Shown here: positions 26,998-40,894 of the stretch, piece after piece
Layout of the letters: each line of letters begins with the position of its first letter
How positions within the stretch are numbered: position 1 is the stretch's first letter
Assembly: GCF_004363655.1 (NCBI RefSeq)
Contig: NZ_SNZH01000011.1
Span: 1-64,000 of the forward strand
Direction: 5' to 3'
Length of the DNA stretch: 64,000 nucleotides
DNA from: Tahibacter aquaticus
GTDB lineage: Bacteria; Pseudomonadota; Gammaproteobacteria; Xanthomonadales; Rhodanobacteraceae
The notes under the pieces: generated by a model
What the model saw: only the letters and a program-made list of their open reading frames with translations
What the model was told of the DNA's origin: nothing
Databases searched by the model: none
Translations under genes and position numbers: made by a program

Positions 26998-27026
26998 GCC
27001 CTGCGCGGCTATTTGCCGCGCAGGGC
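26998..27026. terminator. Hairpin between convergent genes
   Basis: GCCCTGCGCGGC (26998-27009) pairs perfectly with GCCGCGCAGGGC (27015-27026) around TATTT. It lies after the C25 gene and over the last codons of the convergent glycosyltransferase gene, so it could end transcripts from either side. Confidence 0.6.
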
Positions 27027-29246
27027 CGACCACAGGTCGCGCAGCGCGTTGCGTACGTAACCCTTGTCGTAGAAGCGCGCGCTGACATGGCGCGCGAACG
27101 CCGCCGGTGCAATGCGCCGGCGCTGCTGCACACGGCGGCGCTTGCGCAGCATGGCCAGGCTGCCGCGCAACGCATCGCGATACAGGCGGAACACCACGCG
27201 CGCCTTGCCGCGCAGCGAATGGCGCAGCACGATGCCGCCGTGGATGGCCACTATCCAGGGCAGGCGGCGCAGGATCAGGCTCAGCGGCACGCACTTGAGC
27301 AACATCCAGATCGAGTTGCGGATGCCGTGGTACAGCACGAAATCATTGAAGCCGCCGCCACTGGAGGCCTGGCCTTCATGGTGCGCCAGCACCGCATCGG
27401 TATAGCGCGGCACGAACCCCAGCAGCAGTGCCCGCGCTGCCACGTCGGTGTCCTCGGCATAGCAGAAGAACGCTTCGTCGAACACGTAGCCATGCTCGGC
27501 CTGCAAGGCCTCCAGCACGTGCCGCGCATACAGCGCACAGCCACCGGTAGGGCCGAAATACGGTTCGGCGGCATCGAGCCGGTTGGAGGCGAGCAGGCTG
27601 CGGTAGATGGCAATGCCGAGCGAATCGATCTCGTCGCTGCCGGCGTGCAGCTTGAGGACGCGGCCACCGGCGAGATCGGAATCGGCGCGTCCCTGCACAT
27701 GGTCGTCCAGCCAGTGCTGCAGCGCCGGCGTGGCCACCGCGTCGTTGTTCAGCAGCAGCACGTGCGACACGCTGGCCTCTGCCAGGCAGCGCGCGATGGC
27801 GCGGTTGCAGCCGGCGGCAAAACCGATATTCAGCGGACTGGCAATCAGCTCTGCGGCAGGCCATGCCTGCACCAGGCCATCGCGCAGCAGGGCCAGGTCG
27901 GCCGGCTGCGAACCGCTGTCGACCACGATCAGGCGAATGCGCCCGGCCAGTCCGCGCAGCGATTCGACACAGCGCAGGCTGCGGTCAGCGGTGTTGTAGT
28001 TGACCAGTACCACGGCGGCCCGCGGCGGCAGCGCGGCCAGTGGAGGCGGCGACGCGGCAACCGTGCCGGCACCGGCCCGCTGCTGCGCAATGCGATACAC
28101 CTGCAGGGTCGCCGCGACCGTGCGCTGCCAGGAATAGCCGGCGGCCTGGGCCAGTCCGGCCGTCCTTGCCTGCGCGCGCCAGCCTTCGTCGCCGATCAGC
28201 CGACCGAGTCCGCTGCGAATCGCGTCCACGTCGAGCGGGTCTACGCACAGCGCCGCGGTGCCGACCACTTCCGGCATGCAGGCCGCGTTCGACGTCAGCA
28301 CCGGCACGCCGCTGGCCATGGCCTCCAGCAGCGGCAGGCCGAAGCCCTCGTACAGCGACGGAAAGGCGAAGCCGGCCGCGCCCGCATACAGCGCCGGCAG
28401 CTGTGCGTCGGCGACGAAGCCAAGCCGGCGCACTTCGCCGCGCCGCTCCAGCGGTTCCAGCACGCGCGCCAGCGGGGCGTCCAGCCAGCCACGCGCTCCG
28501 ACCACGACCAGCGGCAGGCGCGCGCGCGTGGCCGCGTCCAGGCCGGCATAGGCCTGCACCAGCCGCTCCAGGTTCTTGCGCGGCTCTTGCGTGGCGACCA
28601 CCAGCAGATAGCCCTGCCAGCGCAGCCCGTGCGCCGCCAGCACGGCGGCAACCGCTGCCTCGCCCTGCGGCCGGAAGGCTGCATCCACGCCCAGCGGCAC
28701 GACGTGCAGCTTGGCCGCATCGACGCCGAGCACGCTGACCAGTTCGTCGCGCACATAGGCCGAATCGACGATCAGCGCATCGGCGCGCTGCAGGGTCGGC
28801 GGCAGGTGGCGTTCGAGGAAGCGCACGCGTTCGCGCGGGTGGAACTGTGGATAACGCAAATAGGAAATATCGTGCACCGTGGCGACGCAAGGGCCGTCGA
28901 ACGGCATCAGCACGAAGTTTGGCGCATGCAATACGTGATCGCGCAGGCGCCGCGCGTTGAGCCGGAACAGCTCCGCACGCAAACGCGTATAGCCCTCCAG
29001 CGCAGCGCGCTTGAATGGCAGCAGCCGGCGCACGCTCTGGATGGTGCGATTGACCTGGAACGCCTGTTCGCTGTTACCGACCCAGCGATAGGCGGAAAAC
29101 AGTTTCAGCCCGGCCAGGTCCGGCGAACGTTCCAGCCCCTGGGCCAGTTCCCGCGTATACACGCCGATGCCGGTCAGCGGTGCGCTGATCGCATCGACAT
29201 TCAGAATCAGCTTGAGCGGCGGCAGGCTTTCCTCGGCGGCGCTCAT
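27009..29246 (-). CDS. Two-domain glycosyltransferase (GT4 + GT2)
   Basis: A 745-residue cytoplasmic protein. Residues about 10-375 are a GT4 (GT-B) enzyme: ISAPLTGIGVYTRELAQGL, VVATQEPRKNLERLVQAYAG and the nucleotide-sugar motif FPSLYEGFGLPLLEAMASGV. Residues about 390-640 are a GT2 enzyme: VVLVNYNTADRSLRCVESL, NIGFAAGCNRAI and LLLNNDA as the DXD-like metal site, with FDEAFFCYAEDTDVAARALL as the acceptor region. The tail (to 745) is basic. Two sugars may be added in sequence by one chain. It is the last gene of the minus-strand glycan operon; its ATG overlaps the previous stop (ATGA). Confidence 0.9.
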   Translation of the reverse strand: MSAAEESLPPLKLILNVDAISAPLTGIGVYTRELAQGLERSPDLAGLKLFSAYRWVGNSEQAFQVNRTIQSVRRLLPFKRAALEGYTRLRAELFRLNARRLRDHVLHAPNFVLMPFDGPCVATVHDISYLRYPQFHPRERVRFLERHLPPTLQRADALIVDSAYVRDELVSVLGVDAAKLHVVPLGVDAAFRPQGEAAVAAVLAAHGLRWQGYLLVVATQEPRKNLERLVQAYAGLDAATRARLPLVVVGARGWLDAPLARVLEPLERRGEVRRLGFVADAQLPALYAGAAGFAFPSLYEGFGLPLLEAMASGVPVLTSNAACMPEVVGTAALCVDPLDVDAIRSGLGRLIGDEGWRAQARTAGLAQAAGYSWQRTVAATLQVYRIAQQRAGAGTVAASPPPLAALPPRAAVVLVNYNTADRSLRCVESLRGLAGRIRLIVVDSGSQPADLALLRDGLVQAWPAAELIASPLNIGFAAGCNRAIARCLAEASVSHVLLLNNDAVATPALQHWLDDHVQGRADSDLAGGRVLKLHAGSDEIDSLGIAIYRSLLASNRLDAAEPYFGPTGGCALYARHVLEALQAEHGYVFDEAFFCYAEDTDVAARALLLGFVPRYTDAVLAHHEGQASSGGGFNDFVLYHGIRNSIWMLLKCVPLSLILRRLPWIVAIHGGIVLRHSLRGKARVVFRLYRDALRGSLAMLRKRRRVQQRRRIAPAAFARHVSARFYDKGYVRNALRDLWSALRGK

Positions 29247-30277
29247 GCGGCACCGGCCCTGCGCAGGCGGCGCTGTTCGGCCTGCACCAGCAACTGGGCG
29301 AGACCGGCCAGGTCCAGGCTGTGGCTCAGGCCCAGTTCCTGCCGCGCGCGGCGGGCGTCGCCGCGCAGCAGCGGCGCGTCGGCACGGCGCAGCAGCGTTT
29401 CGTCGACACTGATGCAGACCGTGCCGGTGGCATCCCGCGCAGTTTCGGCGGCGCCGCTGCCCTGCCACTCCAGCGCAATGTCGGCGCTGGCATAGGCCAG
29501 CGTGGCGAACTGGCGTATCGAGGCGACCTGGCCACTGGCGAAGACGAAGTCCTCCGGCTGCTCTCGCGCCGCCAGCTGCTGCAGGGCGGCGACATAGTCG
29601 GGCGCGTAGCCGAAATCGCGCTGTGCGGCGAGATTGCCCAATTGCAATACCTCGGCGTGGCCGGCACTGCGCCGCGCCACCGCTGCGGCAATCTTGCGCG
29701 TGACGAAAGCAGCGTCGCGCAGCGGCGATTCGTGATTGAACAGGATGGCCGCGCTGGCCCGCAGCGCAAAGCTGTCGCGATACGTGCGCACGGCTGCATG
29801 CGCCAGCAGCTTGGACAGCGCATACGGATGGCGTGCCTGCAGCGAACTGGATTCGTCCACAATGCCATTCTGCGGCACGAAGATTTCGCCGCTGGAAGCG
29901 AGCACGAAGTGCGTATCAGCACTGTGCCGCTGCACCGCCTGCAGCAGATGCAGGGTGCCCATGCCGTTGCTGTTGACGCTGTCGAGCGGGTCTTGCGCGG
30001 CGCGGGCGACGCTGCTGACCGCAGCAAGATGGTAGAGCTGCTGCGGTCGCAGGCTGCGCACGGCATCGGCGCAGGCCAGCGCATCGCGCACGTCCAGCGC
30101 AATCAGTTCCAGCCGTGGCTGGCCGAGCAGGTCCAGCTCGCGCAGGCGCCACAGCGAGGCTTCGCCGAATCCGGGCCGCAGTGCAGCCTGCACCTGCCAG
30201 CCGGCGGCGAGCAGATCGCGGCAGAGGTAGGCGCCATCCTGCCCGCCGGCACCAGTGACCAGGGCGCAGCGCTTCAT
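29243..30277 (-). CDS. GDP-mannose 4,6-dehydratase-like SDR enzyme
   Basis: A 344-residue NAD(P)-dependent sugar-nucleotide enzyme. The Rossmann motif is GAGGQDGAYL at 9-18; LYHLAAVSSVARA, the SDR pair Y-x3-K in HPYALSKLLAH, and the catalytic Ser/Glu in ASSGEIFVPQ follow. LFNHESPLR and GNLAAQRDFGYAPDYV are hallmarks of GDP-mannose 4,6-dehydratases. It would make GDP-4-keto-6-deoxymannose, precursor of GDP-rhamnose or GDP-fucose. Sequence is more diverged than a textbook Gmd in the C-terminal third, so RMD or a related 4-epimerase role is possible. It shares stop/start overlaps with both neighbours. Confidence 0.8.
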   Translation of the reverse strand: MKRCALVTGAGGQDGAYLCRDLLAAGWQVQAALRPGFGEASLWRLRELDLLGQPRLELIALDVRDALACADAVRSLRPQQLYHLAAVSSVARAAQDPLDSVNSNGMGTLHLLQAVQRHSADTHFVLASSGEIFVPQNGIVDESSSLQARHPYALSKLLAHAAVRTYRDSFALRASAAILFNHESPLRDAAFVTRKIAAAVARRSAGHAEVLQLGNLAAQRDFGYAPDYVAALQQLAAREQPEDFVFASGQVASIRQFATLAYASADIALEWQGSGAAETARDATGTVCISVDETLLRRADAPLLRGDARRARQELGLSHSLDLAGLAQLLVQAEQRRLRRAGAA

Positions 30278-31770
30278 GCGCGCACACCGAACGGATTCGC
30301 CGCCGCCGCACCGTCGCGGTCGAGCTGGAACAGATCGGCCACGGCCGCCAGCTCCGCCGGCAGCGTGCCGACGATGCGGTCTATCGCCTGGCGCTGCAGC
30401 AGCTGGGCAAACGCCGCACGGCGCTGCGCCCGCGCCGCCGCATCGTCGCCGGCGGCGACAGCAATCCGTTCGCACAGCGGCCAGCGCTGCGCATCGGCCG
30501 ACTGCAGCAGCCAGTGGTCGCGCTGTACGCTGCAGTTGGCCAGCAACTGCCCGTCGCCGGGCGTAGCCGCAGCACCCTCCCAGCACAGTAGCCGCGGCAG
30601 CGGCGCCGGCCGGGCATAGGCGCAGCGCACGCGCCAGTCCAGCGCGCGCCGGCGCGGCGAAAACAGCGTGGCACCGACATCGGCTTCGTAGCGCGGCCAG
30701 CGCTGGCGCAGCACGGCCATGCCCGCCTCGCCCAGCACGCGGCGGCGCTCGTGGCCGAAGCTCTGGCTGCGGGCATGCCGCACCAGCACCGGGCCGGCGA
30801 TCGCATGCTGCCAGCCGGCGGCCTCGGCGCGCTGGCACCAGTCGTTTTCCTCGCCGTAGCCCTGGGCGAAGGCGTGTGCGTCGAACAGGCCGACCGCGTC
30901 CAGCGCGGCGCGCTTGAGATAGATGCAGAAACCGTTGCCGGTGGGCAGGCGCGGATAGGCCAGCCCGGCGCACTGGCGCAGGGCCAGCGCCGCTTGTGCA
31001 AATGTCCACCCTTGCGGAAAGGGATTTTCCTGCTCCAGCTCGGGCACCGAGAACGCGCCGGCATTGTCCGACACCGCCGTGGCACTGGCCGTGTCGCTGC
31101 GCGCCCAGGCGGCGGCACGCAGGCCGTCCAGCCAATGCGCGGCGACTTCGGTATCGGCGTTCAGCAGTACCACGTCAGCGCGGCCGGCCAGCTGCATGCC
31201 GCGGTTGACCGTGCCGGTGAAGCCGAGGTTGCTGTCGTTGCGCAGGATTTCCACACCGGCGATGCCGCGGTAGCTGGCCAGCAGCGGCGCGATCGCCGCC
31301 TCGCTGCTGGCATCGTCGATCACGATCAGGCGCGCGGCACCGCGCGTATGCGCCAGCACGCTGTCCAGGCAGCTGCGCACCGCCTCGGCCGCGTTGTATA
31401 CCGGCACGATGATCGCCACTTCGCGCGCCAGGGCCACGGCGGCAGTCGTCGGATCGAGCAATTCCTCGCCCTGCAACGGCTGCAGCGGCAGCAGCGTGTC
31501 GGCGCGCGCCAGGCCGGCCTGTCCCTGGCACAGCTGCACCGGTGACGACAGTTCGCCGCCGCAGCGCAATTGCAGCTGTATACTTTTCTGCCCGTTGGGC
31601 AGGTCGGGCAGGGCCAGCACTATGCGACTGGCGGCGTCGGCCGGCAGGCAGGCGTAGATGACCTGGTCCAGCCACACTTCAACAGCCTGGCCCGGAGCCG
31701 ATTCCAGCGCGAGCGCATGGCCGTCCCAGTCCAGCCGCCGCGGCAATCGCGAATGTGCTTGCGTATCCAT
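30274..31770 (-). CDS. GT2 family glycosyltransferase with extra N- and C-terminal domains
   Basis: A 498-residue protein. Residues 1-115 are a beta-rich leader with no recognised family. Residues about 118-375 are a GT2 GT-A domain: VAIIVPVYNAAEAVRSCLDS, LIVIDDASSE, SNLGFTGTVNRGM and LLNADTEV as the metal-binding motif, then NGFCIYLKRAALDAVGLFDA and GYGEENDWCQRAEAAGW. The last 110 residues contain a small unassigned domain (LLCWEGAAATPGDGQLLANC). It likely adds one sugar of the surface glycan. The ATG at 31770 shares a base with the upstream stop (TGATG), so translation is probably coupled. Confidence 0.88.
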   Translation of the reverse strand: MDTQAHSRLPRRLDWDGHALALESAPGQAVEVWLDQVIYACLPADAASRIVLALPDLPNGQKSIQLQLRCGGELSSPVQLCQGQAGLARADTLLPLQPLQGEELLDPTTAAVALAREVAIIVPVYNAAEAVRSCLDSVLAHTRGAARLIVIDDASSEAAIAPLLASYRGIAGVEILRNDSNLGFTGTVNRGMQLAGRADVVLLNADTEVAAHWLDGLRAAAWARSDTASATAVSDNAGAFSVPELEQENPFPQGWTFAQAALALRQCAGLAYPRLPTGNGFCIYLKRAALDAVGLFDAHAFAQGYGEENDWCQRAEAAGWQHAIAGPVLVRHARSQSFGHERRRVLGEAGMAVLRQRWPRYEADVGATLFSPRRRALDWRVRCAYARPAPLPRLLCWEGAAATPGDGQLLANCSVQRDHWLLQSADAQRWPLCERIAVAAGDDAAARAQRRAAFAQLLQRQAIDRIVGTLPAELAAVADLFQLDRDGAAAANPFGVRA

Positions 31771-34445
31771 CAGCTTCGTTCCCGTTCCGCCGCCAGCACA
31801 GCGCGATGCTCACGGCCAATCTGTTGCAGCAGCGCGACCGCCGTGTCGTCGGCGGCTGGCGGCGCCGCGTCGCCGATCGCATCTGCTGCACGCTGCTGCA
31901 GCCATTGCCACAAGGCGGTCTGCGCCGCACTGGCCTGCGGTTCCCGCGCCAGCCGCTGGCGGGCCAGCTGCGGCCCGACCCAGGCGGCCACCTCTTCCGC
32001 CGCAGGCTCGCGCAGCCCGCGCAGGCCAAAGTCCTGCAAAGCCCGGCGCAGCCGCTGCAGTTGCAGCAGCGGCTCGCGCAACAGGCAATGGTAATCCAGC
32101 ACGATGCTGCGCCGCTGATGCGTCAGTGCCAGTGCGGCGCGGTTGTGGTGCTCCCACAGGGCCAGCGCATGCGGCGCGGTCAGGCCATCACGGCGCAACA
32201 GCGAAGCCGCCACGGCGGCCGGCGGGCGTATCACGTGGACGAACACAGCATCGGCCAGGCTGTCGGCGATTTCGTCCAGCAGCAGGCACAGGCGCGGCTC
32301 CTTGACGAACCAGGTGCCGGCCGGGCGCAGCTGCGCCTGGATCGCGGCCCAGTCGTCGCGCCAGCGCTGCCGCGATCCACGCAGTGCCGCCGTATCCCAG
32401 CCCAGCGGCACCGACCAGTCGCCGCCGCGGCTGCGCAAGGCTTCGACACAGGCCAGATGCAGGTCGCCACGTTCGAGAAAGCCGCGCGGGTTTTCCTGCG
32501 GATTGCGCAGGAAACCCTCCGGCTCGCCGCCATAGGCGCCGAGCAGCTGCAGCAGGCCGGCGACGCAGGAGGTGCCCGAACGATGCATGCCCAGCACCAC
32601 CAGTGGCTGTTGCGGCGCCGCCGCGGCCACCGCGCGCAGGCGTGCCGGCGGACGCTGCTGCAGGCGTTCGCGCACGCGCTGCGCAGTCTGCGCCCAGGCG
32701 CCCTGTACTCGCACGGCCGCGCTGATCTGCTCTGCCCGGGCACAGGCCGCCGGCCAATCCGCCAGCCATTCGCGCAGGCGCTGCAGCAGCGCTGTTTCCA
32801 TTTCCGCGGCGTCGGCGCTGACCGCCTGCCCGCCGTACTGCGCCAGCAACTCGGCGCAGATGCCGTGGTCCGGTGCGAGCAAAGGCTTGCCCACGGCGAG
32901 CGCCTGCAGCGCCGCCCAGCTGCGCTGGCGGCTGCGGCTGCTGACGATGACCGCGTCGGCCGCGGCAAACAGGGCCGAATGCTGCTCTTCGTGCAGACGC
33001 CGCTGCGGCAGCAGGCTGTAGCGGCCACCGTGCGGATCCAGCGCCAGCGCGCGCGTGGCCGCGGCCAGGTCGATGCCGGGCGCGTCCAGCCACAGCAGCA
33101 GGCGCAGCTTGTCCTCGCGTCGAAAAGTCTGCGTCCAGGTTTGCAGCAGTTGCCAGGGCCGGTCGAGTTCGTCCCACTGCGCCACGCACAGCACGACGCG
33201 CTCGCCGGCCGGATTGCGCGGCACACGCAGGCGCGGATGCGCATACGCCGGATCGATGCCGAACGGCAGCCAATGCACCGGCGCCTCGACACCCAGTCCC
33301 AGCAGCTCGTCGCGCTGCCACTGCGCCGCCACCCAGATCTCGTCCATCGCGCGCAGGCTGGCGATCTCGTCGTCGGCCAAGGTCTCGAACGCGGCCAGTC
33401 CGATGCGATACGCGCCGGCCACGCGCGGCCACAGGCGCATATCGCCGGCACACAGCACGACCTCGGGCAGTGCGGCCAGCGTGCGCCGGCGCAGCATGTT
33501 CAACAGCACGTCTTGGCTGTCGCCGCTCTCGGCAATCGCTTCGGGCAACACCGCCGCATACAGCGAGCGATACGTCAGGCGCACGCCGGCCAGGTCCAGC
33601 GCACGCGCCAGCGGCCGCAGCCAGCGTGCCGTTTCGCGGGGAAAATCCAGCGCACCGGCGATATGCAGATCGAGGTCGTACTGCTGGCGCAATGCGGCGC
33701 CCCAGTGCTGCAGCAGGGTGGCGCGGCCCTGCGCCTGCAGCTGCGCGCGCCATTCCTCGCGGCCGGCACTGGAGCCGTGCTGCTCGTGCTGCAAGGTCAC
33801 GCCGCCGCAAAGCCAGGTCTGCCAGCCCGCGGCCGCCGCGCGCAGGCAGTAGTCGCTGTCCTCGCCGTAGGTCACGTAATCGGTATGCAGCGGCCCTATC
33901 GCCTCGATCACCGCACGGCGGATATACACCGCGGCGAAGACCACGCCTTCGACGCGTCGGTCCGCGTCGCTGTACTGGCCCATATCGCGCTCGACCCGGC
34001 CCGATGCGGTCTGCACGCCCGCGCCGTCGTCAGGCATCAGCCGCGTGCCCGCATGCAGCAGCCTGCCCTCGCCGTCGACCAGGCGGCAGCCCGCAATGCC
34101 GCAGCGCTCGTTATCTTGTACACAACGCCGCAAACGCTGCAGCCAGTCGCGCTGGCCGAACACCAGGTCATTGTTCAGCAGCACCACGTCGCTGTCCGCG
34201 GCCACGGCGGCAATGCCGGCGTTGTTGCCGCGCACGAAGCCGAGGTTGTGCGGCAGGCGCAGGCTGCGCACGCGCGGTGCATAGGCCGCCAGGCGCTGCG
34301 GTGTCGCATCGCTGGAACCGTTGTCGACGACGAGGATGTCGCAATCGGGCAGCGCGCAGCCGAGCAGGCTGTCCAGCGCGCGCGCCGTCAGTTCCCAGCG
34401 GTTCCAGGCCAGCAGGATCAGGCTGGTACGCGCCGCCAGGCTCAT
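31770..34445 (-). CDS. Three-domain GT2 / GT4-like / sulfotransferase protein
   Basis: An 891-residue protein. Residues about 5-250 are a GT2 domain (SLILLAWNRWELTARALDSL, VVDNGSS, NLGFVRGNNAGI, LLNNDLV, TYGEDSDYCLRAAAAGW). Residues about 330-600 are a GT-B/GT4-like domain (GAYRIGLAAFETLADDEIAS, WLPFGIDP, LFAAADAVIVSSRSRQRSW), lacking a clean EGF-type motif. From about 615 there is a sulfotransferase: the 5'-phosphosulfate loop LGMHRSGTSCVAGLLQLLG (618-636), NPRGFLERGDL, and a 3'-phosphate site near HVIRPPAAVAASLLRRDG. This predicts assembly and sulfation of the glycan by one chain, using PAPS as donor. The start at 34445 overlaps the previous stop (ATGA). Domain limits are estimates. Confidence 0.88.
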   Translation of the reverse strand: MSLAARTSLILLAWNRWELTARALDSLLGCALPDCDILVVDNGSSDATPQRLAAYAPRVRSLRLPHNLGFVRGNNAGIAAVAADSDVVLLNNDLVFGQRDWLQRLRRCVQDNERCGIAGCRLVDGEGRLLHAGTRLMPDDGAGVQTASGRVERDMGQYSDADRRVEGVVFAAVYIRRAVIEAIGPLHTDYVTYGEDSDYCLRAAAAGWQTWLCGGVTLQHEQHGSSAGREEWRAQLQAQGRATLLQHWGAALRQQYDLDLHIAGALDFPRETARWLRPLARALDLAGVRLTYRSLYAAVLPEAIAESGDSQDVLLNMLRRRTLAALPEVVLCAGDMRLWPRVAGAYRIGLAAFETLADDEIASLRAMDEIWVAAQWQRDELLGLGVEAPVHWLPFGIDPAYAHPRLRVPRNPAGERVVLCVAQWDELDRPWQLLQTWTQTFRREDKLRLLLWLDAPGIDLAAATRALALDPHGGRYSLLPQRRLHEEQHSALFAAADAVIVSSRSRQRSWAALQALAVGKPLLAPDHGICAELLAQYGGQAVSADAAEMETALLQRLREWLADWPAACARAEQISAAVRVQGAWAQTAQRVRERLQQRPPARLRAVAAAAPQQPLVVLGMHRSGTSCVAGLLQLLGAYGGEPEGFLRNPQENPRGFLERGDLHLACVEALRSRGGDWSVPLGWDTAALRGSRQRWRDDWAAIQAQLRPAGTWFVKEPRLCLLLDEIADSLADAVFVHVIRPPAAVAASLLRRDGLTAPHALALWEHHNRAALALTHQRRSIVLDYHCLLREPLLQLQRLRRALQDFGLRGLREPAAEEVAAWVGPQLARQRLAREPQASAAQTALWQWLQQRAADAIGDAAPPAADDTAVALLQQIGREHRAVLAAERERS

Positions 34446-34819
34446 GCCTGGGCGTCGTCGCGCACCGGGTTTTCCTGCGCCACGCCCTGCCACAGCTGCT
34501 GCAACAGCGGATCGAGATCGCGCGCCGCAGCGGCGTCGTCGCAGAGCGCGTCCAGCAGCACGCGGCGGCGCGCCAGGCCGTCGTCATGGGCGGCGACGAT
34601 GCGGCGCCAGTGCTGCGTGTCCTGTGCCACCGCCGTGCTGCGCCCGCCGCGGCGCAGCAGCCAGTCCACGGGCGCCAGCAGCGCGCGGCCCAGGCGCCAG
34701 CTGCGGCTGTGGAATACCGCCTCGCCCTGCTGCAGCAGAATGTCGATGACATGGCGCAGTTCGGCTTCGACCTGGCGCGATTCGGCCAGGCGCAGTTCCA
34801 GTTCCTGTTCGCGATTCAT
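34442..34819 (-). CDS. Short helical accessory protein of the glycan operon
   Basis: A 125-residue protein with a strong GGAGG site before ATG 34819. The N-terminal half is a charged helix likely to form a coiled coil (NREQELELRLAESRQVEAEL), followed by SRSWRLGRALLAPVDWLLRR. That last stretch resembles the S-x-SWR-(L/I)-T-x-PLR linker that often ends a coiled coil in glycosyltransferase proteins. It may organise or tether the multi-domain glycosyltransferase encoded next. Four-base overlaps join it to both neighbours. No catalytic motif is visible. Confidence 0.72.
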   Translation of the reverse strand: MNREQELELRLAESRQVEAELRHVIDILLQQGEAVFHSRSWRLGRALLAPVDWLLRRGGRSTAVAQDTQHWRRIVAAHDDGLARRRVLLDALCDDAAAARDLDPLLQQLWQGVAQENPVRDDAQA

Positions 34820-36180
34820 GCCACGCCTCCGGCGCAAGCGCCGTCCAGCCACGGGCCGAGCAGCGCCAGGCCCAGCAGCAACGCCGCCAGCAGGCTTGCC
34901 AGCAGCCAGCGCCAGGTTCCGCCGAATACCACGGCCGCGCCGGGTTCGTTGCGGCGCAGGCTGACCAGGGCGCTGCCGGCAAACGCGCACAGGAAGGGCA
35001 TCATCGGCAGCAGGAAGCGCGCTTTCACGTGCAGCAGCAGGTACAGGCCCAGCTGGTAGGCGAAGAACAGGCCTATCCACCACACCAGCACGTCACGCCA
35101 GCGCCGCCAGAACACCAGGCCGAGCGCAAAGCCAGCCAGAATGGACAAGTGGAAAATATCGCCCAGCAGGGCCAGGCCCTGCCCCAGCAGCGGCGGTACG
35201 GCACGATAGGTGCCGACATGGCCGCTGCAGGCCGGGCCGGGCAGCTGGCTCAGCAGCAGGGTCTTGCTGCTGAACAGGCGGAAATACTGCTTCTGCAGCT
35301 GCTGCGACAGGGTTTGCAGCAGGCCACGTTCGCGCACGATGCCTTCGGCCCTGGCCATGAACAGCGCATTGCGCTGCGCCGCGCCGCCGGGCAGGCTGAA
35401 ATACTCGCCCGCCAAGGGAGCGACGCTGTCGGCTACGTAGTCGCTGCGCCAGCGGTCTTCCAGGCCGCCGACCAGGTTGAACGCGGAACTGTCGGCGATC
35501 ATCGGCTTGCCCGTGAGCTTCCAGCCGTTCCACAGCGGCACGGCGATCACCGCGGCCACGGCCAGCAGCAGCGCTGCGCTCGCGCGCCAGTTCCAGCGCC
35601 AGCCCTGCACGATCAGCAAGGCCGGCCAGAACAGGCTGAGCAGGCTCTTGGCCAGCAGCGCGCCACCCAGGGCCAGGCCGGCCGCCACGCCGCGCCAGGC
35701 CGTGGTCAGGCGCTGCACCAGGCGCAGCGCCGCCAGCAGCAGCAGCAGGTGCAACGGCTCAGGCCAGAGCCACTGCGCATAGGCCATGGTGGAAGGATTC
35801 AACAGCAGCAGCGCCGCCGCCGCGTTGGCCGCGCGCACGCGGCCGTCCACGTCGCGCCAGATCGCGCGCAGCAGCGCGGCCGCGCCGATCAGGAATGCTG
35901 TCTGCAGCAGCTGTATCGGCAGCAGGTTTTCGCCGAACAGGCGCAGCATCGCGGCGATCAGCCAGGCCTGCAGCGGCGGCCACCAGCCGGCGTCGACGAT
36001 CGGCGGCGCCAGACCGGCCAGGCCGCGCGCCCAGTTCAGATAGCTGGCTTCGTCGCCAAGCAGCGTCTTGCCACCGCCCCAGTACAGCCAGTACAGGGCA
36101 ATTTGCTGCAAAAGGAAAAACGCAATAAATACCAGCAGCAGGATGCGCCGCCGCGACTGCGCATCCTGCCGCGGGTTCAC
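34816..36180 (-). CDS. GT-C membrane glycosyltransferase (ArnT/PMT-like)
   Basis: A 454-residue polytopic inner-membrane protein with about ten to twelve hydrophobic spans, beginning LLLVFIAFFLLQQIALYWLY. The first periplasmic loop has the acidic motif LLGDEASYLNWARGL expected for the catalytic Asp/Glu of lipid-linked sugar transferases, followed by WWPPLQAWLIA. A large loop at about 230-300 (LVGGLEDRWRSDYVADSVAP) is typical too. It would transfer sugar from a polyprenyl-phosphate carrier on the periplasmic side. The GTG at 36180 lies 3 bases after the lipoprotein stop, so the operon probably begins with the lipoprotein gene. Confidence 0.85.
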   Translation of the reverse strand: MNPRQDAQSRRRILLLVFIAFFLLQQIALYWLYWGGGKTLLGDEASYLNWARGLAGLAPPIVDAGWWPPLQAWLIAAMLRLFGENLLPIQLLQTAFLIGAAALLRAIWRDVDGRVRAANAAAALLLLNPSTMAYAQWLWPEPLHLLLLLAALRLVQRLTTAWRGVAAGLALGGALLAKSLLSLFWPALLIVQGWRWNWRASAALLLAVAAVIAVPLWNGWKLTGKPMIADSSAFNLVGGLEDRWRSDYVADSVAPLAGEYFSLPGGAAQRNALFMARAEGIVRERGLLQTLSQQLQKQYFRLFSSKTLLLSQLPGPACSGHVGTYRAVPPLLGQGLALLGDIFHLSILAGFALGLVFWRRWRDVLVWWIGLFFAYQLGLYLLLHVKARFLLPMMPFLCAFAGSALVSLRRNEPGAAVVFGGTWRWLLASLLAALLLGLALLGPWLDGACAGGVA

Positions 36181-36183
36181 GGC

Positions 36184-36726
36184 TTACTGCGCCGGCTGGG
36201 TCGGCTGCGCAGGCTGTGCCGGCGCGGCGGCCGGCTTGCGCTTGGCAGCGGCCTTGAACACCGGCGTGAACTTCTCGCGGGTGCCGTCGGTGGCAATGGA
36301 TTCGACGTAGTACCAGTATTCCTTGCAGGGATCGATGGTGTCGTCGCGGAATTCGTATTTCTTGGTTTCGTCGGTAGTGCCGGCGCCGAGCACCGGTTCC
36401 GCGCCGAGCTTGGCGAACGGGCCGGCTTCGGCATCGCCGCGGAACACTTCATAACCGAAGTTGTCGACTTCGCTGGCCGTGGTCCAGCGCGGCGTGTTGG
36501 CCAGGCGCTGTTCTTTGGGCAACGCGCTCTGGTCGCCGCACGCGCCTTCTGCAATCGCCGGTGGCGGCGCGTCGGCCGGTTTGGCATCGGCAGGCTTGGC
36601 ATCGACCGCCTTGTTTTCCGCAGCCTTGGCAGGGGCGGCCGGTGCCGCCGGTTTGCTGTCGGTGGACGAATTGCTGCACGCCGTCAGCGACAGCAGCAAG
36701 ACCAGGGGAACGAACAGATGGCGCAT
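36184..36726 (-). CDS. Lipoprotein with fibronectin-III-like domain
   Basis: A 180-residue protein with a lipoprotein signal: MRHLFVPLVLLLSLTACSNS, with lipobox LTAC and Cys at 17. An Ala/Pro/Lys linker of about 40 residues follows, then a region that resembles a fibronectin type III module (TPRWTTASEVDNFGYEVFRG, then EYWYYVESIATDGTREKF), and a Pro/Ala/Gln tail. The linker and tail may span the peptidoglycan. A GGAG site precedes ATG 36726. First gene of the minus-strand glycan operon and divergent from the transglutaminase-like gene, so both promoters lie in the 92-base gap. Possible role: outer-membrane component for glycan display. Confidence 0.75.
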   Translation of the reverse strand: MRHLFVPLVLLLSLTACSNSSTDSKPAAPAAPAKAAENKAVDAKPADAKPADAPPPAIAEGACGDQSALPKEQRLANTPRWTTASEVDNFGYEVFRGDAEAGPFAKLGAEPVLGAGTTDETKKYEFRDDTIDPCKEYWYYVESIATDGTREKFTPVFKAAAKRKPAAAPAQPAQPTQPAQ

Positions 36727-36818
36727 GGGGAACTCCGCAGATGAGGTGGGCTGGAACACGAACCGTATCCCAACGCGGCCTATGGACAAGCACAGGCGGG
36801 CGCAACGATAGTCGGCAC

Positions 36819-37991
36819 ATGCTTTCCGTGCAAACCCCAAATCGGCTCAGGTCGCCGCGATTGGCCCTGGCCAGCTTGCTGCTGTGGCTGCCTTTTGCCA
36901 TTGCCCAGGCCGCCGGCTGGCAGGCCAGCATCAGCCCCGGCGACGCGCTGTATCCCGTACTCGATCTGTCCCAGGGCGTGAGCAAGCCCGGCGAAGGCCG
37001 CTACGGCGACGGCAGCGGCATGATCTCGGTCGATATTGTCGCCAGCCAGGACAACGAACGCGTCGACCTGCGCGTCAGCGCACCGGCGCTGGCGCAGGCA
37101 GCGACGGTACAGGCCGTACTGCCGCGCGCCGGCCAGCACTACACCTTGAAACCGCGCCTGCGCTGGGACCGCGGCGCACTGGCGCGCGTGGACAAGCCGC
37201 AGGACATCGCCGTCGACTTCCGCCTGCAGCGCAACGGCGGCGACGTGCAGACGCGGCGCCAGGCTGCGCGCCTGCACCCGCTGTCCGAAGCGCTGTACTA
37301 CGTGCGCGACGGCAAGGACCATGTCGATCTCGGCTGGATCTTCGCCGCCTACGCCGATCCCAACTCGCCCGTGATCGATCGCATCCTCGACGAGGTGGCC
37401 GAGCGCCATCCCTTCGTCTCGCTGCAGCCCGGCCCGCGCAGCAGCGCGCAGACCCTGGCGGCAGCCTATGCCGTGTGGGAAGTGCTGCAACTGCACGGCG
37501 TGCGTTACGCGGACGAAGACCCGGGCCTGGCCCGCGGCCCGCTGGTCTGGAGCCAGCACGTGCGCCTGCACGACGATGTGTGGAACGAACGCCGCGCCAA
37601 CTGCATCGACGGCAGCCTGCTGCTGGCGGCGGCGCTGGAACGCCTGGGCATACGCAGCGTGCTGCTGCTGGTGCCGCGGCATGCCTTGCTGGCGTTCTAT
37701 ACCGACGCACGCCAGTCGGCGCCGACCTTCGTCGAAACCACCTTGCTCGGTGCGCGCCAGCTGGCCGTGCGCCCCCGGCCCGGCTTCGTCGGCGAACTCA
37801 GCCTGATCGACAGCGATGCACTGGACAGTTTCTCTGCCGCCCTGGTCGCCGGCCAGGCGCGCTATGCACGCGAAGCGGCCGGCTTCGGCCAGCGCAAGCC
37901 CGACTTCCAATGGATCGACCTGGCTACCGCGCGCAGCTACGGCATCGTGCCGCTGGCCGCACCCGCTGCCGCGGCACCGCCGCGCCGCTGA
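36819..37991 (+). CDS. Secreted transglutaminase-like protein
   Basis: A 390-residue protein with a signal peptide (LALASLLLWLPFAIAQAAG). Residues about 25-140 look like a beta-rich domain. From about 200 onward there is a papain-like transglutaminase fold: AYAVWEVLQLHGVRYADEDP, RRANCIDGSLLLAAALERLG with the candidate nucleophile Cys in NCID, and a candidate His in VPRHALLAFYTD, followed by a candidate acidic residue further on. It might cross-link or cleave peptide or cell-wall material, or act as a peptidase. It starts the plus-strand half of the glycan locus. Family assignment is from motif order; activity is not assured. Confidence 0.65.
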   Translation: MLSVQTPNRLRSPRLALASLLLWLPFAIAQAAGWQASISPGDALYPVLDLSQGVSKPGEGRYGDGSGMISVDIVASQDNERVDLRVSAPALAQAATVQAVLPRAGQHYTLKPRLRWDRGALARVDKPQDIAVDFRLQRNGGDVQTRRQAARLHPLSEALYYVRDGKDHVDLGWIFAAYADPNSPVIDRILDEVAERHPFVSLQPGPRSSAQTLAAAYAVWEVLQLHGVRYADEDPGLARGPLVWSQHVRLHDDVWNERRANCIDGSLLLAAALERLGIRSVLLLVPRHALLAFYTDARQSAPTFVETTLLGARQLAVRPRPGFVGELSLIDSDALDSFSAALVAGQARYAREAAGFGQRKPDFQWIDLATARSYGIVPLAAPAAAAPPRR

Positions 37992-38016
37992 AGCAGCACG
38001 CAGCCGCCCCTTGCCC

Positions 38017-38622
38017 ATGAGCCCTACCGACGCATCCCGCCGCAGCGACGAACTGCAGCAGCTGCACGCACGGATCCGCAGCGAGGCGCTGGCCCTGCCC
38101 GCGCCACCGGCCAGCGACGTGCTGCCGCGCGCTGCCGTCACGGCGGAACTACCGGCCGATCATCCGCAGCGGCTGAACTATGCGCTGGATGATTTTCTCC
38201 ATGTGCACAACGAGGAATTTGTCGAACTCGCCTACCGCTGCCTGCTCAAGCGTGCGCCCGATGCACAAGGCCATCTGGAACTGTTGCAGCGCCTGGCCGC
38301 CGGCGACAGCAAGATCGCCATCCTCGGCGATATGCGCGAATCGGTCGAAGGCCGCGGCTTTGGCGTGGAAATACGTGGCCTGGCCGCGCGCTACCGGTTC
38401 TGGCGGCTGACGCGACTGCCGCTGGTCGGCAGCCTGATCGAACGCGCGGCACTGCTGTGGAACCTGCCCGAGATCGCCCGCGAACAACGCCGCCTGGGCC
38501 AGGCCCTGGCGCGGGAAAGCCATAGCGGCGAACTGGTCGAGCTGGCGGCCGAACTCGCACGCCTGCGCCGGGAAATGCAACGCCTGCGCCGCGACACCGA
38601 GCGTTCCGGCAAAGGCGATTGA
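38017..38622 (+). CDS. DUF4214 domain protein
   Basis: A 201-residue cytoplasmic protein. Residues about 50-120 match DUF4214: DFLHVHNEEFVELAYRCLLK, RAPDAQGHLELLQRLAAGDS and GDMRESVEGRGFGVEIRGLA, the F-V-x-x-x-Y-x-x-LL-x-R-x-P-D-x-x-G pattern. The C-terminal 60 residues are a charged helix (ELAAELARLRREMQRLRRDT) likely to be a coiled coil. DUF4214 is often found with or inside surface-glycan enzymes and exported repeat proteins; its role is not established. It overlaps the next glycosyltransferase start (TGATG), which suggests a shared complex. Confidence 0.8.
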   Translation: MSPTDASRRSDELQQLHARIRSEALALPAPPASDVLPRAAVTAELPADHPQRLNYALDDFLHVHNEEFVELAYRCLLKRAPDAQGHLELLQRLAAGDSKIAILGDMRESVEGRGFGVEIRGLAARYRFWRLTRLPLVGSLIERAALLWNLPEIAREQRRLGQALARESHSGELVELAAELARLRREMQRLRRDTERSGKGD

Positions 38623-39710
38623 TGCGCATGAAGATCGCCCTGCTCGCCCCTTCGCTGACCGCACACGACGCCGTCGGCACCGACGTGCTGGAAATGGCCG
38701 CGGCACTGCGCCAGGCCGGCCACGACGTGCGCCTGTACGCCGACCATAGCCAGGGCATTCACGACAGCGTGCATGCCCCGGCCGGGCTGGAGCGCTGGCT
38801 GGGGCCGCGGGATCTGGTCATCTACCACTATTCCATTGGCTGGCCGCGCGTCGAACAGCAGCTGGCGACGCTGCGCTGCCGCCGCGTGCTGCGCTACCAC
38901 AACATCACGCCGCCGGAATTCTTCCAGGGCTGGTCGCGCGAGCATGTGCGCAGCTGCGCTGCCGGCCGCGCCGGCCTGGCCACGGTCGCCACGCTCGGTT
39001 TCGATCTCGCCTGGGCCTGCTCGGCCTACAACCGCGACGAGCTGGTACAGGCCGGCCTGCCGCCGGAACGGAGCCTGGTGCTGGCGCCGTTCCACCGCTG
39101 CGAGGCGCTGCTGGACCAGGCCGCCGACAGCGCCCTGCTCGACCGCTACGACGACGGCCGCCGCAATATCCTGATGCTGGGCCGGGTCGCGCCGAACAAG
39201 GGGCATATCGCCCTGTTCGACGCCTTCGCCTGCTACCGGCGCGAATACGATGCCGAGGCGCGCCTGCTTGTGGTCGGCAAGCACGACCGCCGCCTGGGAC
39301 GCTATTCGCGCCATCTGCGCGAGCGCTGTGCCACACTGGATATTTCTGCACAGGTTCACTTTCTCGACAATGTCGACGATGCCCGGCTGAAGGCCTGCTG
39401 GCTGGTCGCCGATGCGCTGCTGATGCTGTCCGAACACGAAGGATTCTGCGTGCCCCTGGTCGAGGCGATGGCCCTGGGCGTGCCCATCGTCGCGCGCGAC
39501 AGCAGTGCCATAGGCCAGACCCTGGGCGAAGCCGGCCTGCTCTGGCAGGAATCCGATCCGCGCCTGTACGCCGCCAGCCTGGCCCGCCTGGTGCGCGACG
39601 CGGACAGCGCCGAACTGCTGCGCCTGTGCGGACGCGCGCGCTACCGTGAGCAGTTCGCTCCGGCAGTGCTGCGCACCCAGCTGCTCGCGGCGATGGAGGC
39701 TTTCGCATGA
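38622..39710 (+). CDS. GT4 family glycosyltransferase
   Basis: A 362-residue GT-B fold enzyme. N-terminal Rossmann half: MKIALLAPSLTAHDAVGTDV, YADHSQGIHDS and LRYHNITPPEFF. C-terminal nucleotide-sugar half: LMLGRVAPNKGHIALFDAFA, VHFLDNVDDARLKACWLVAD and LSEHEGFCVPLVEAMALGVP, with the E-x7-E pair in place. It transfers a sugar with retention. The ATG at 38622 shares a base with the preceding stop; a second ATG at 38628 is possible. Cytoplasmic, probably a step in the same glycan. Confidence 0.92.
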   Translation: MRMKIALLAPSLTAHDAVGTDVLEMAAALRQAGHDVRLYADHSQGIHDSVHAPAGLERWLGPRDLVIYHYSIGWPRVEQQLATLRCRRVLRYHNITPPEFFQGWSREHVRSCAAGRAGLATVATLGFDLAWACSAYNRDELVQAGLPPERSLVLAPFHRCEALLDQAADSALLDRYDDGRRNILMLGRVAPNKGHIALFDAFACYRREYDAEARLLVVGKHDRRLGRYSRHLRERCATLDISAQVHFLDNVDDARLKACWLVADALLMLSEHEGFCVPLVEAMALGVPIVARDSSAIGQTLGEAGLLWQESDPRLYAASLARLVRDADSAELLRLCGRARYREQFAPAVLRTQLLAAMEAFA

Positions 39711-40894
39711 AGCGTCTTGCCATCGTGGTACAGCGCTGCCATGCGCAGATTGCCGGCGGCTCCGAGGCGCTGGCCTGGCATTACGCCCAGCTGCTCGGCA
39801 CGCAATTCCAGGTCGATATTCTGACCAGCTGCGCGCTGGACTACCGCAGCTGGGACAACACCCTGCCCGCCGGCGAAGAATGGCGCGACGGCATCCGCAT
39901 CCTGCGTTTTGCCAGCGCCTGGCCGCGGGGCAGCTGGTTCAACGAACTGCACCGGCGCCTGCTGCACAGCTACGCCCAGGATGTGGAACGCGGCGGTGCC
40001 GGTGCCATCGCCTGGCGTGCGCCGCTGGCGGAACAGTTCGTACGCGCGCAGGGGCCATGGTGCCCTGGCCTGATTGATCATCTGGCGCAACATCACGCCG
40101 ACTACCAGGCTGTGCTGTTCTGCACCTACCTCTATCCGACCAGCTATTTCGGCCTGGAAACCGTGCCGCAGCACAAGCGCTTTCTGATACCGACCCTGCA
40201 CGACGAACCGCCGGCCTACCTGCCCATCTACGCCCAGGCCGCGCGCCGGGCGCGGCTGATCTGGCTGACCGCGGCAGAACGCCGCCTCGGTGCACGCTTG
40301 TGGAAAGTGGAACATGGCGAGGTAATCGGCATGGCCGTCGACACCGCGCCAGCGGCACCCGCCGCGGCACAACGCCCCTACCTGCTGTACTGCGGCCGCA
40401 TCGACGAAAGCAAAGGCTGCCGCGAGCTGATCGCCGCATTCCGCCAGCTGCGCCGCCAGCGCCTGGACACGGCAGACCTGGTGCTGACCGGCGCCGATCA
40501 CCTGCAGGTGCGCGAAGGCGACGGCGTGCGCTACCTCGGCTTCGTCGACGAAGCGCACAAGCACGCGCTGATGGCCGGTGCCCGCGCCTTCGTCATGCCG
40601 TCGCGCTGGGAAAGCTTCAGCATCGTCACCCTGGAAGCGCTGGCCCAGGGCACGCCGGTCATCGTCAACGGCGATTGCGACGTACTGGCCGACCATGTCG
40701 CCCATTCCCAGGCGGGCTGGAGCTTCCACGACACGGCCGGGCTGGTGCGCTGCATGAACCTGGCGCTGGACCTGCCCGCCGCGGCACGGGAAACCATGGC
40801 GCGGCAGGCACGCCGCTACGTCGCCGGCAATTTCGCCCGGCACACGATTGCCGAAAAACTGACCGCCTGCGTGGAAGGTGTCGCAGCCGGCTGA
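39707..40894 (+). CDS. GT4 family glycosyltransferase
   Basis: A 395-residue GT-B enzyme: MKRLAIVVQRCHAQIAGGSE at the N-terminus (the GGSE acceptor loop), a long insertion at about 60-120, LLYCGRIDESKGCRELIAAF at the donor domain and MPSRWESFSIVTLEALAQGT as the E-x7-E motif. It follows the previous GT4 with a four-base ATGA overlap and ends the plus-strand half of the glycan locus. Specificity unknown. Its stop lies 21 bases from the convergent phoQ-like gene. Confidence 0.92.
   Translation: MKRLAIVVQRCHAQIAGGSEALAWHYAQLLGTQFQVDILTSCALDYRSWDNTLPAGEEWRDGIRILRFASAWPRGSWFNELHRRLLHSYAQDVERGGAGAIAWRAPLAEQFVRAQGPWCPGLIDHLAQHHADYQAVLFCTYLYPTSYFGLETVPQHKRFLIPTLHDEPPAYLPIYAQAARRARLIWLTAAERRLGARLWKVEHGEVIGMAVDTAPAAPAAAQRPYLLYCGRIDESKGCRELIAAFRQLRRQRLDTADLVLTGADHLQVREGDGVRYLGFVDEAHKHALMAGARAFVMPSRWESFSIVTLEALAQGTPVIVNGDCDVLADHVAHSQAGWSFHDTAGLVRCMNLALDLPAAARETMARQARRYVAGNFARHTIAEKLTACVEGVAAG

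Follow-up and report, generated by a model that had tools for sequence, protein, structure and literature searches.

The described systems closest to the 11-gene glycan block analyzed here, which occupies positions 27009-40894 of a 64,000-nucleotide stretch of Tahibacter aquaticus DNA (contig NZ_SNZH01000011.1, positions 1 to 64,000; the window), are an O-antigen locus dependent on Wzm/Wzt, a type of large multidomain glycosyltransferase and a sulfated-capsule cluster. In the available portion of its description, the Aeromonas salmonicida wbsalmo cluster has in common with the present system a multidomain glycosyltransferase, a gene with an ArnT domain, a gene with a sulfotransferase domain and an exporter of the ATP-binding cassette (ABC) type ABC-2, whose wzm and wzt genes lie apart from each other (PMC4483657). 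The same portion describes glycosyltransferases of the WbbB type, which are likewise large proteins with stacked transferase domains and serve ABC-2 O-antigen systems (PMC4483657). The cluster for the sulfated capsule of Vibrio sp. KMM 8419, as far as the excerpted report goes, shares with our system the presence of sulfotransferases and ABC export in one glycan locus (PMC11641403).

The block is most likely a conserved gene cluster that builds a surface sugar polymer, and we favor, with moderate confidence, the view that it is a surface-polysaccharide locus of the ABC-2 (Wzm/Wzt) type whose exporter has, in this genus, been relocated away from the operon. It is unusual in two respects: the exporter lies outside the operon in the genus, and one enzyme pairs a GT2 domain with a sulfotransferase domain across a GT4 domain that, by its sequence, has decayed. 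Compared with the described part of wbsalmo, the sulfotransferase is fused here to GT2 and the apparently dead GT4, the exporter is on another contig, and Wzt has about 232 amino acids (aa) instead of 438 (PMC4483657). The domain set also differs from that of the WbbB type, being GT2, GT4-like and sulfotransferase. The Vibrio cluster, in the portion described, carries genes for the synthesis of 3'-phosphoadenosine 5'-phosphosulfate (PAPS) and Kps genes (PMC11641403), neither of which is present in the block. Literature searches of open-licence full text surfaced no paper on the gene order or the fusion.

Results

The exporter lies within the locus in sister genera and, where found, outside it in this genus

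We compared the locus with its relatives, whose genes were predicted by a home-made composition caller, so that their starts are approximate. In all 14 sister-genus genomes, which were picked for holding the three-domain gene, this gene is separated from that for the GT-C membrane glycosyltransferase by an ABC exporter, Wzm-Wzt; the exporter genes of G011 matched PF01061 (ABC-2 permease) and PF00005 (ATPase). In contrast, Wzm-Wzt was absent from the fetched block regions of 7/7 genus genomes, and the junction that relatives fill with Wzm-Wzt holds here a gene for a 125-aa protein. The encoding of Wzm/Wzt together with glycosyltransferases, by which we recognize an ABC-2 locus, was found inside the locus in 14/14 sister genomes and in 0/7 genus blocks, and the same-clade pair in this genome is unlinked; the exporter gap in the block is peculiar to this genus. 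Beyond the sister genera, a pair of this clade occupies that chromosomal position in G022 (same family), where both flanks match, and in G060 (another family), where one flank was seen and matches on the regulator side. In G214 and G155, such a pair directly precedes a two-domain homolog.

In the present genome (G000), the Wzm-Wzt pair of the locus clade is on another contig (start at C8:89577), flanked by the atp operon and by an 863-aa glycosyltransferase gene (G000:C8:86904-89495; L061:16905-19496), which is followed by a glmU-like gene. The 863-aa protein has a C-terminal GT4 domain and an N-terminal half without a Pfam match. Unlinked pairs of the same clade were found in five of the eight genus genomes (G000, G002, G005, G006 and G007), and the 863-aa gene adjoins the pair in every one of these five. 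The pair adjoins the atp operon in four of them, with a glmU-like gene on the other side in three and a contig end in the fourth; in G007 it adjoins a glmS-like gene (glmU, glmS and atp are names assigned by eye, with which the Pfam matches are consistent). In phylogenetic trees, the C8 pair groups with the locus-embedded pairs and apart from the two other pairs of this genome, with support of 100/100 (Wzm) and 100/99 (Wzt) for the 26-row clade and of 95/97 and 95/93 for the genus with its sister genera. The most economical history is a single excision on the genus stem, followed by relocation and by later loss in some species.

In family scans, none of the 11 block proteins matched an exporter, a flippase or a polymerase, in agreement with a first-pass annotation of the window, which had concluded that the locus may decorate a protein or lipid. 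That conclusion is weakened because the locus of relatives contains Wzm-Wzt and a pair of the same clade is present elsewhere in this genome.

Two further regions of the genome contain related genes. A second ABC exporter cluster (L092 and L077; G000:C1:554000-576000) encodes a Wzt of about 452 aa together with its own methyltransferase and a Sulfotransfer_3 protein, and adjoins a metB-like gene (by eye). In a 1547-aa frame (L084:2776-7419; G000:C9:152775-157418), a GMHRSGTS motif can be read by eye close to the start, and the final part is paralogous to the 863-aa enzyme; Pfam matched a GT4 part and, weakly, DUF4504.

The three-domain protein joins a sulfotransferase to a decayed GT4 domain

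The C-terminal domain of the three-domain protein matches Sulfotransfer_3 (PF13469; 35.2 bits, cut-off 27). The motifs GMHR[S/A]GTS, KEPRLCL and R-x-P...S are present in 21/21 fused proteins, and with this family score and the 5'-PSB and 3'-PSB motifs the domain has the features of a PAPS-dependent sulfotransferase. Among 11 aligned orthologs, 79 of 260 positions are invariant in the GT2 domain and 60 of 238 in the sulfotransferase domain, compared with 22 of 340 in the middle. Likewise, dN/dS (Nei-Gojobori, 10 pairs of five same-genus sequences, in high-GC DNA with dS 0.53-0.99) was 0.18-0.41 for GT2, 0.19-0.45 for the sulfotransferase domain and 0.24-0.71 for the middle.

The middle domain was aligned to a solved GT4 enzyme with its catalytic Glu pair, which forms the EX7E motif of retaining GT4 enzymes. 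In the window protein the pair is replaced by R and Q. Across 25 homologs, the first Glu is present in none of the 21 that are fused to a sulfotransferase and the second in 8 of these 21 (0/7 in this genus), compared with both residues in 4/4 examined homologs without the fusion; G155, also fusion-free, was omitted from this comparison because its match ends at residue 290. This contrast of 4/4 with 0/21 probably reflects a single evolutionary event, and in the GT2 tree the fused forms group weakly (83/18). Judged from these residues, the GT4-like middle is catalytically decayed, and on the loss of the EX7E pair an enzyme with three active transferase domains was rejected.

Arrangements in more distant genomes show that the slot after GT2-GT4 varies and that the middle domain is dead in the fused form. 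G659, a genome of another order within the class, has a GT2-GT4 gene with an intact Glu pair next to a separate gene with a weak Sulfotransfer_3 match (18.6 bits, below the cut-off of 27) and a distant Wzm-Wzt pair. A GT4 takes the place of the sulfotransferase as third domain in G277 and G180. With regard to the sulfate donor, the genome has three APS (adenosine 5'-phosphosulfate) kinase matches over cut-off, two of them strong, so PAPS is probably available. Sulfotransfer_3 domains are common elsewhere in the genome, with 13 matches in all.

Gene layout and conservation of the block

Gene calls and family scans resolved the block into two divergent runs, as follows.

27009-29246, minus strand: GT4-GT2 fusion, catalytic motifs present in both domains (family scan, motif check)
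29243-30277, minus strand: enzyme of the GDP-mannose 4,6-dehydratase clade (GDP_Man_Dehyd; PF16363, 270.6 bits)
30274-31770, minus strand: GT2 glycosyltransferase, 498 aa (Pfam PF00535, E 9.5e-16)
31770-34445, minus strand: three-domain protein with GT2 (residues 1-270), a degenerate GT4-like middle (271-600) and Sulfotransfer_3 (608-845)
34442-34819, minus strand: 125-aa protein, coiled-coil-like by eye, with a conserved SRSW motif; no family match
34816-36180, minus strand: GT-C membrane glycosyltransferase (PMT_2; Pfam PF13231, 27.9 bits, cut-off 26.1, E 3.1e-6)
36184-36726, minus strand: lipoprotein, first gene of the minus-strand operon; signal peptide with an LTAC lipobox by eye, no Pfam match
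36819-37991, plus strand: secreted protein with invariant Cys/His/Glu, transglutaminase-like at best (ortholog alignment, family scans)
about 38017-38622, plus strand: DUF4214 protein, start uncertain (Pfam PF13946, E 2.7e-5)
38619-39710, plus strand: GT4 glycosyltransferase, EX7E intact (family scan, motif check)
39707-40894, plus strand: GT4 glycosyltransferase, EX7E intact (family scan, motif check)

The genes are real, and a sugar-transfer locus on both strands, as the first-pass annotation had read it, is supported; its gene list mostly held, with five GT2/GT4 genes in place of four, besides the GT-C gene, and with the 125-aa gene added. The starts of the two runs are 92 bases apart, provided the chosen starts hold. 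A promoter scan of this gap gave a single weak consensus match, which was not used, and an Rfam scan and a tRNA scan of the window gave no matches. Consistent with the earlier description, stop-start overlaps of 1 or 4 bases occur at 5/5 minus-strand junctions from 36180 to 27009; the lipoprotein and GT-C genes are separated by a 3-base gap. However, the strict stoichiometry that had been deduced from these overlaps does not follow and was rejected. The GT-C/125-aa junction varies within the genus, with a gap of 9-18 bases in five of the six other genus genomes (the sixth is ambiguous), and the GT4-GT2 counterpart is a lone GT4 gene in 4/4 sister genomes in which the frame was measured. Most of the overlaps do recur in the genus; a 4-base overlap is possible in 7/7 genus genomes between the GT2 and dehydratase genes and between the 125-aa and three-domain genes.

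Comparison of gene order, which had been proposed as a check, showed that all 11 genes recur in the same order in seven same-genus genomes (this one counted) and most of them in the 14 sister genomes, which exceeds a chance arrangement. In G003 the last block gene is cut by the contig end, and in G004 a GT4 gene of the plus run is split into two frames (L039:7163-8241). In the eighth genus genome, G005 (680 contigs), the end of the GT4-GT2 gene is found next to a C25 peptidase gene where a contig breaks off. Within the fetched stretches, the 14 sister genomes retain the minus run, with Wzm-Wzt added. Their plus run is variable: no secreted protein was found in three of them (G049, G362 and G404), DUF4214 and both GT4 genes were not seen within the stretches of G373 and G392, and the DUF4214 counterpart in G049 is fused to a methyltransferase domain. 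The DUF4214 gene was found in 7/7 genus genomes. A regulator/kinase flank was seen in four genus genomes (G000, G001, G006 and G007) and not within the stretches of G002 and G004.

The full-length three-domain protein itself was found, among 99 relatives searched, in seven of eight same-genus genomes (this one counted) and in four genomes of two sister genera. An order-wide search of 398 genomes gave 25 matches at 1e-60, and the 18 that were full length all belong to this genus and the two sister genera. A class-wide search of 369 genomes gave six matches, of which the two full-length ones are this genome and one congener. BLASTP gave no support for homology of the 125-aa protein to the product of the 141-aa gene that, in G214, separates Wzt from the GT2-GT4 gene; an S[R/K][S/T]W motif is present in both (by eye).

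In the dehydratase-like enzyme, E131, Y152 and K156 are invariant in 11/11 sequences, so that the Tyr/Lys pair is in place, and structures of GDP-mannose 4,6-dehydratase matched at E 2.4e-101 compared with 2e-37 for a reductase. The enzyme scored 233.9 bits against the NCBIfam gmd equivalog cut-off of 415, and other parts of the genome hold two stronger PF16363 matches; its substrate may therefore differ. The secreted protein has Cys262, His288 and Glu306 invariant in 10/10 orthologs, in keeping with its earlier label of transglutaminase-like, but the family match is weak: scans of the 10 orthologs gave one match to Transglut_core2 (E 0.25), one to DUF3088 (E 0.24) and nothing better. The secreted protein (36819-37991) also matches the N-terminal part of the NCBIfam model antiphage_ProA (E 1.2e-23, 82.6 bits, cut-off 1500).

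Next to the block, at 24281-26989, lies the gene for a 902-aa C25 (gingipain-family) peptidase, found in 8/8 genus genomes and near the block in several. Its match to the PorU model is partial (209.3 bits, cut-off 420). A link to type IX secretion or sortase function was considered and set aside: the PorU score is far below the cut-off, the gene is outside the block, and its position varies, with a spacing from the block of about 18 kb in G004 and about 4 kb in G001 and a location on the opposite side of the locus in G373 and G392.

Discussion

Under the interpretation we favor, the cytoplasmic GT2/GT4 enzymes would assemble a glycan on a lipid carrier, with the GDP-mannose-dehydratase-clade enzyme supplying a GDP-6-deoxyhexose as one of several sugar donors. 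The GT2 domain of the three-domain protein would add one sugar and its C-terminal domain would sulfate the chain from PAPS, the dead GT4 middle serving as a scaffold. Wzm/Wzt, although unlinked, may still serve the locus and would export the chain, and in the periplasm the GT-C enzyme would use a lipid-phosphate sugar to add a residue. The identity of the sugars and the site of final attachment are likewise predictions of this scheme.

Several observations weigh against it. A Wzm of the same clade was not found in G001 (95% complete), G003 (87%, fragmented) or G004 (99%, one contig), in all of which the block is present; the best Wzm matches in these genomes (6e-16 to 5e-17) belong, where placed, to other exporter systems. 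In G003 the 863-aa gene is present in fragments, so the exporter there may simply be unassembled. The 863-aa gene was not found in G001 and G004; as this neighbor is absent alongside the exporter, the relocated pair may now serve a different polymer. G001 and G004 speak against a strict need for the exporter. Further, the pair upstream in G277 and G180 belongs to another clade, the five genus Wzt proteins group weakly (81/46), and the trees were rooted at the midpoint, the tool having warned that long branches meet at deep splits. With regard to sulfation, a PDB profile search with the sulfotransferase domain gave three matches, none significant (best E 0.049), and no PAPS-making genes are in the block.

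Among the alternatives, it is possible, if rather unlikely, that the sulfotransferase domain is inactive or acts on another group, giving an unsulfated polymer; this would be compatible with any reading of export. The available part of the Vibrio study regards PAPS genes and sulfotransferases in one cluster as a hallmark of sulfated polysaccharides (PMC11641403), and the block lacks this combination. The Aeromonas salmonicida ABC-2 O-antigen cluster has a sulfotransferase-domain gene, yet the known structure, as given in the excerpted report, has no matching residue (PMC4483657). Because of these two points, sulfation here is a hypothesis. However, the PAPS motifs in all 21 fused proteins and the constraint on the domain (its dN/dS range given above) count against an unsulfated product, and sulfation of the glycan is plausible. 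The sulfated-glycan pathway that the first-pass annotation had raised as possibly undescribed has conserved sulfotransferase motifs, and its sulfation step is putative.

It is improbable that the exporter was lost for good on the genus stem and that a short glycan, finished by the GT-C enzyme, now decorates a lipid or protein. The exporter-free blocks of 7/7 genus genomes, the lack of a same-clade exporter anywhere in G001 and G004, and the retention of the GT-C enzyme, the lipoprotein and the secreted protein would fit such a repurposing. On the other hand, five of eight genus genomes retain the same-clade pair, and the remaining operon genes are kept as though the product were unchanged.

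Still less probable is that the locus uses a C1a- or C1b-type Wzm-Wzt (Wzt of 378-457 aa), with the C8 pair serving the 863-aa glycosyltransferase. Pairs of both types are present in G000, G001 and G004, and the constant adjacency of the 863-aa gene to the C8-type pair would suit this arrangement. However, the C1b-type pair belongs to a separate cluster that also holds genes for a methyltransferase and a Sulfotransfer_3 protein, and selectivity for one glycan end is usual among exporters that have a C-terminal Wzt domain; both points count against sharing. Finally, a Wzx/Wzy locus was rejected because no Wzx or Wzy family is present among the 11 block proteins (no genome-wide Wzx search was made; Wzy_C has four genome matches, three over cut-off, all outside the block), as was a group 2/3 Kps capsule, because Capsule_synth (KpsC/KpsS, PF05159) has no match in the genome and the E. 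coli and B. subtilis controls were positive.

For the history of the locus, we tentatively propose that an ancestral bifunctional GT2-GT4 enzyme, acting on an ABC-exported glycan, acquired a sulfotransferase at its C-terminus in the ancestor shared by the three genera, and that its GT4 active site was lost. The reaction following GT2 would thereby have changed from the addition of a sugar to that of sulfate, the dead GT4 being retained as a scaffold that binds the chain, and one genus would later have uncoupled the locus from its exporter.

Overall, a glycan pathway that appears export-less in one genome and is yet an ABC-exported polymer locus in its relatives represents an annotation trap. 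The natural series formed by GT2-GT4 proteins with intact Glu residues and no sulfotransferase, and by proteins with a dead GT4 and a fused sulfotransferase, offers a way to test how possibly sulfated surface glycans evolved.

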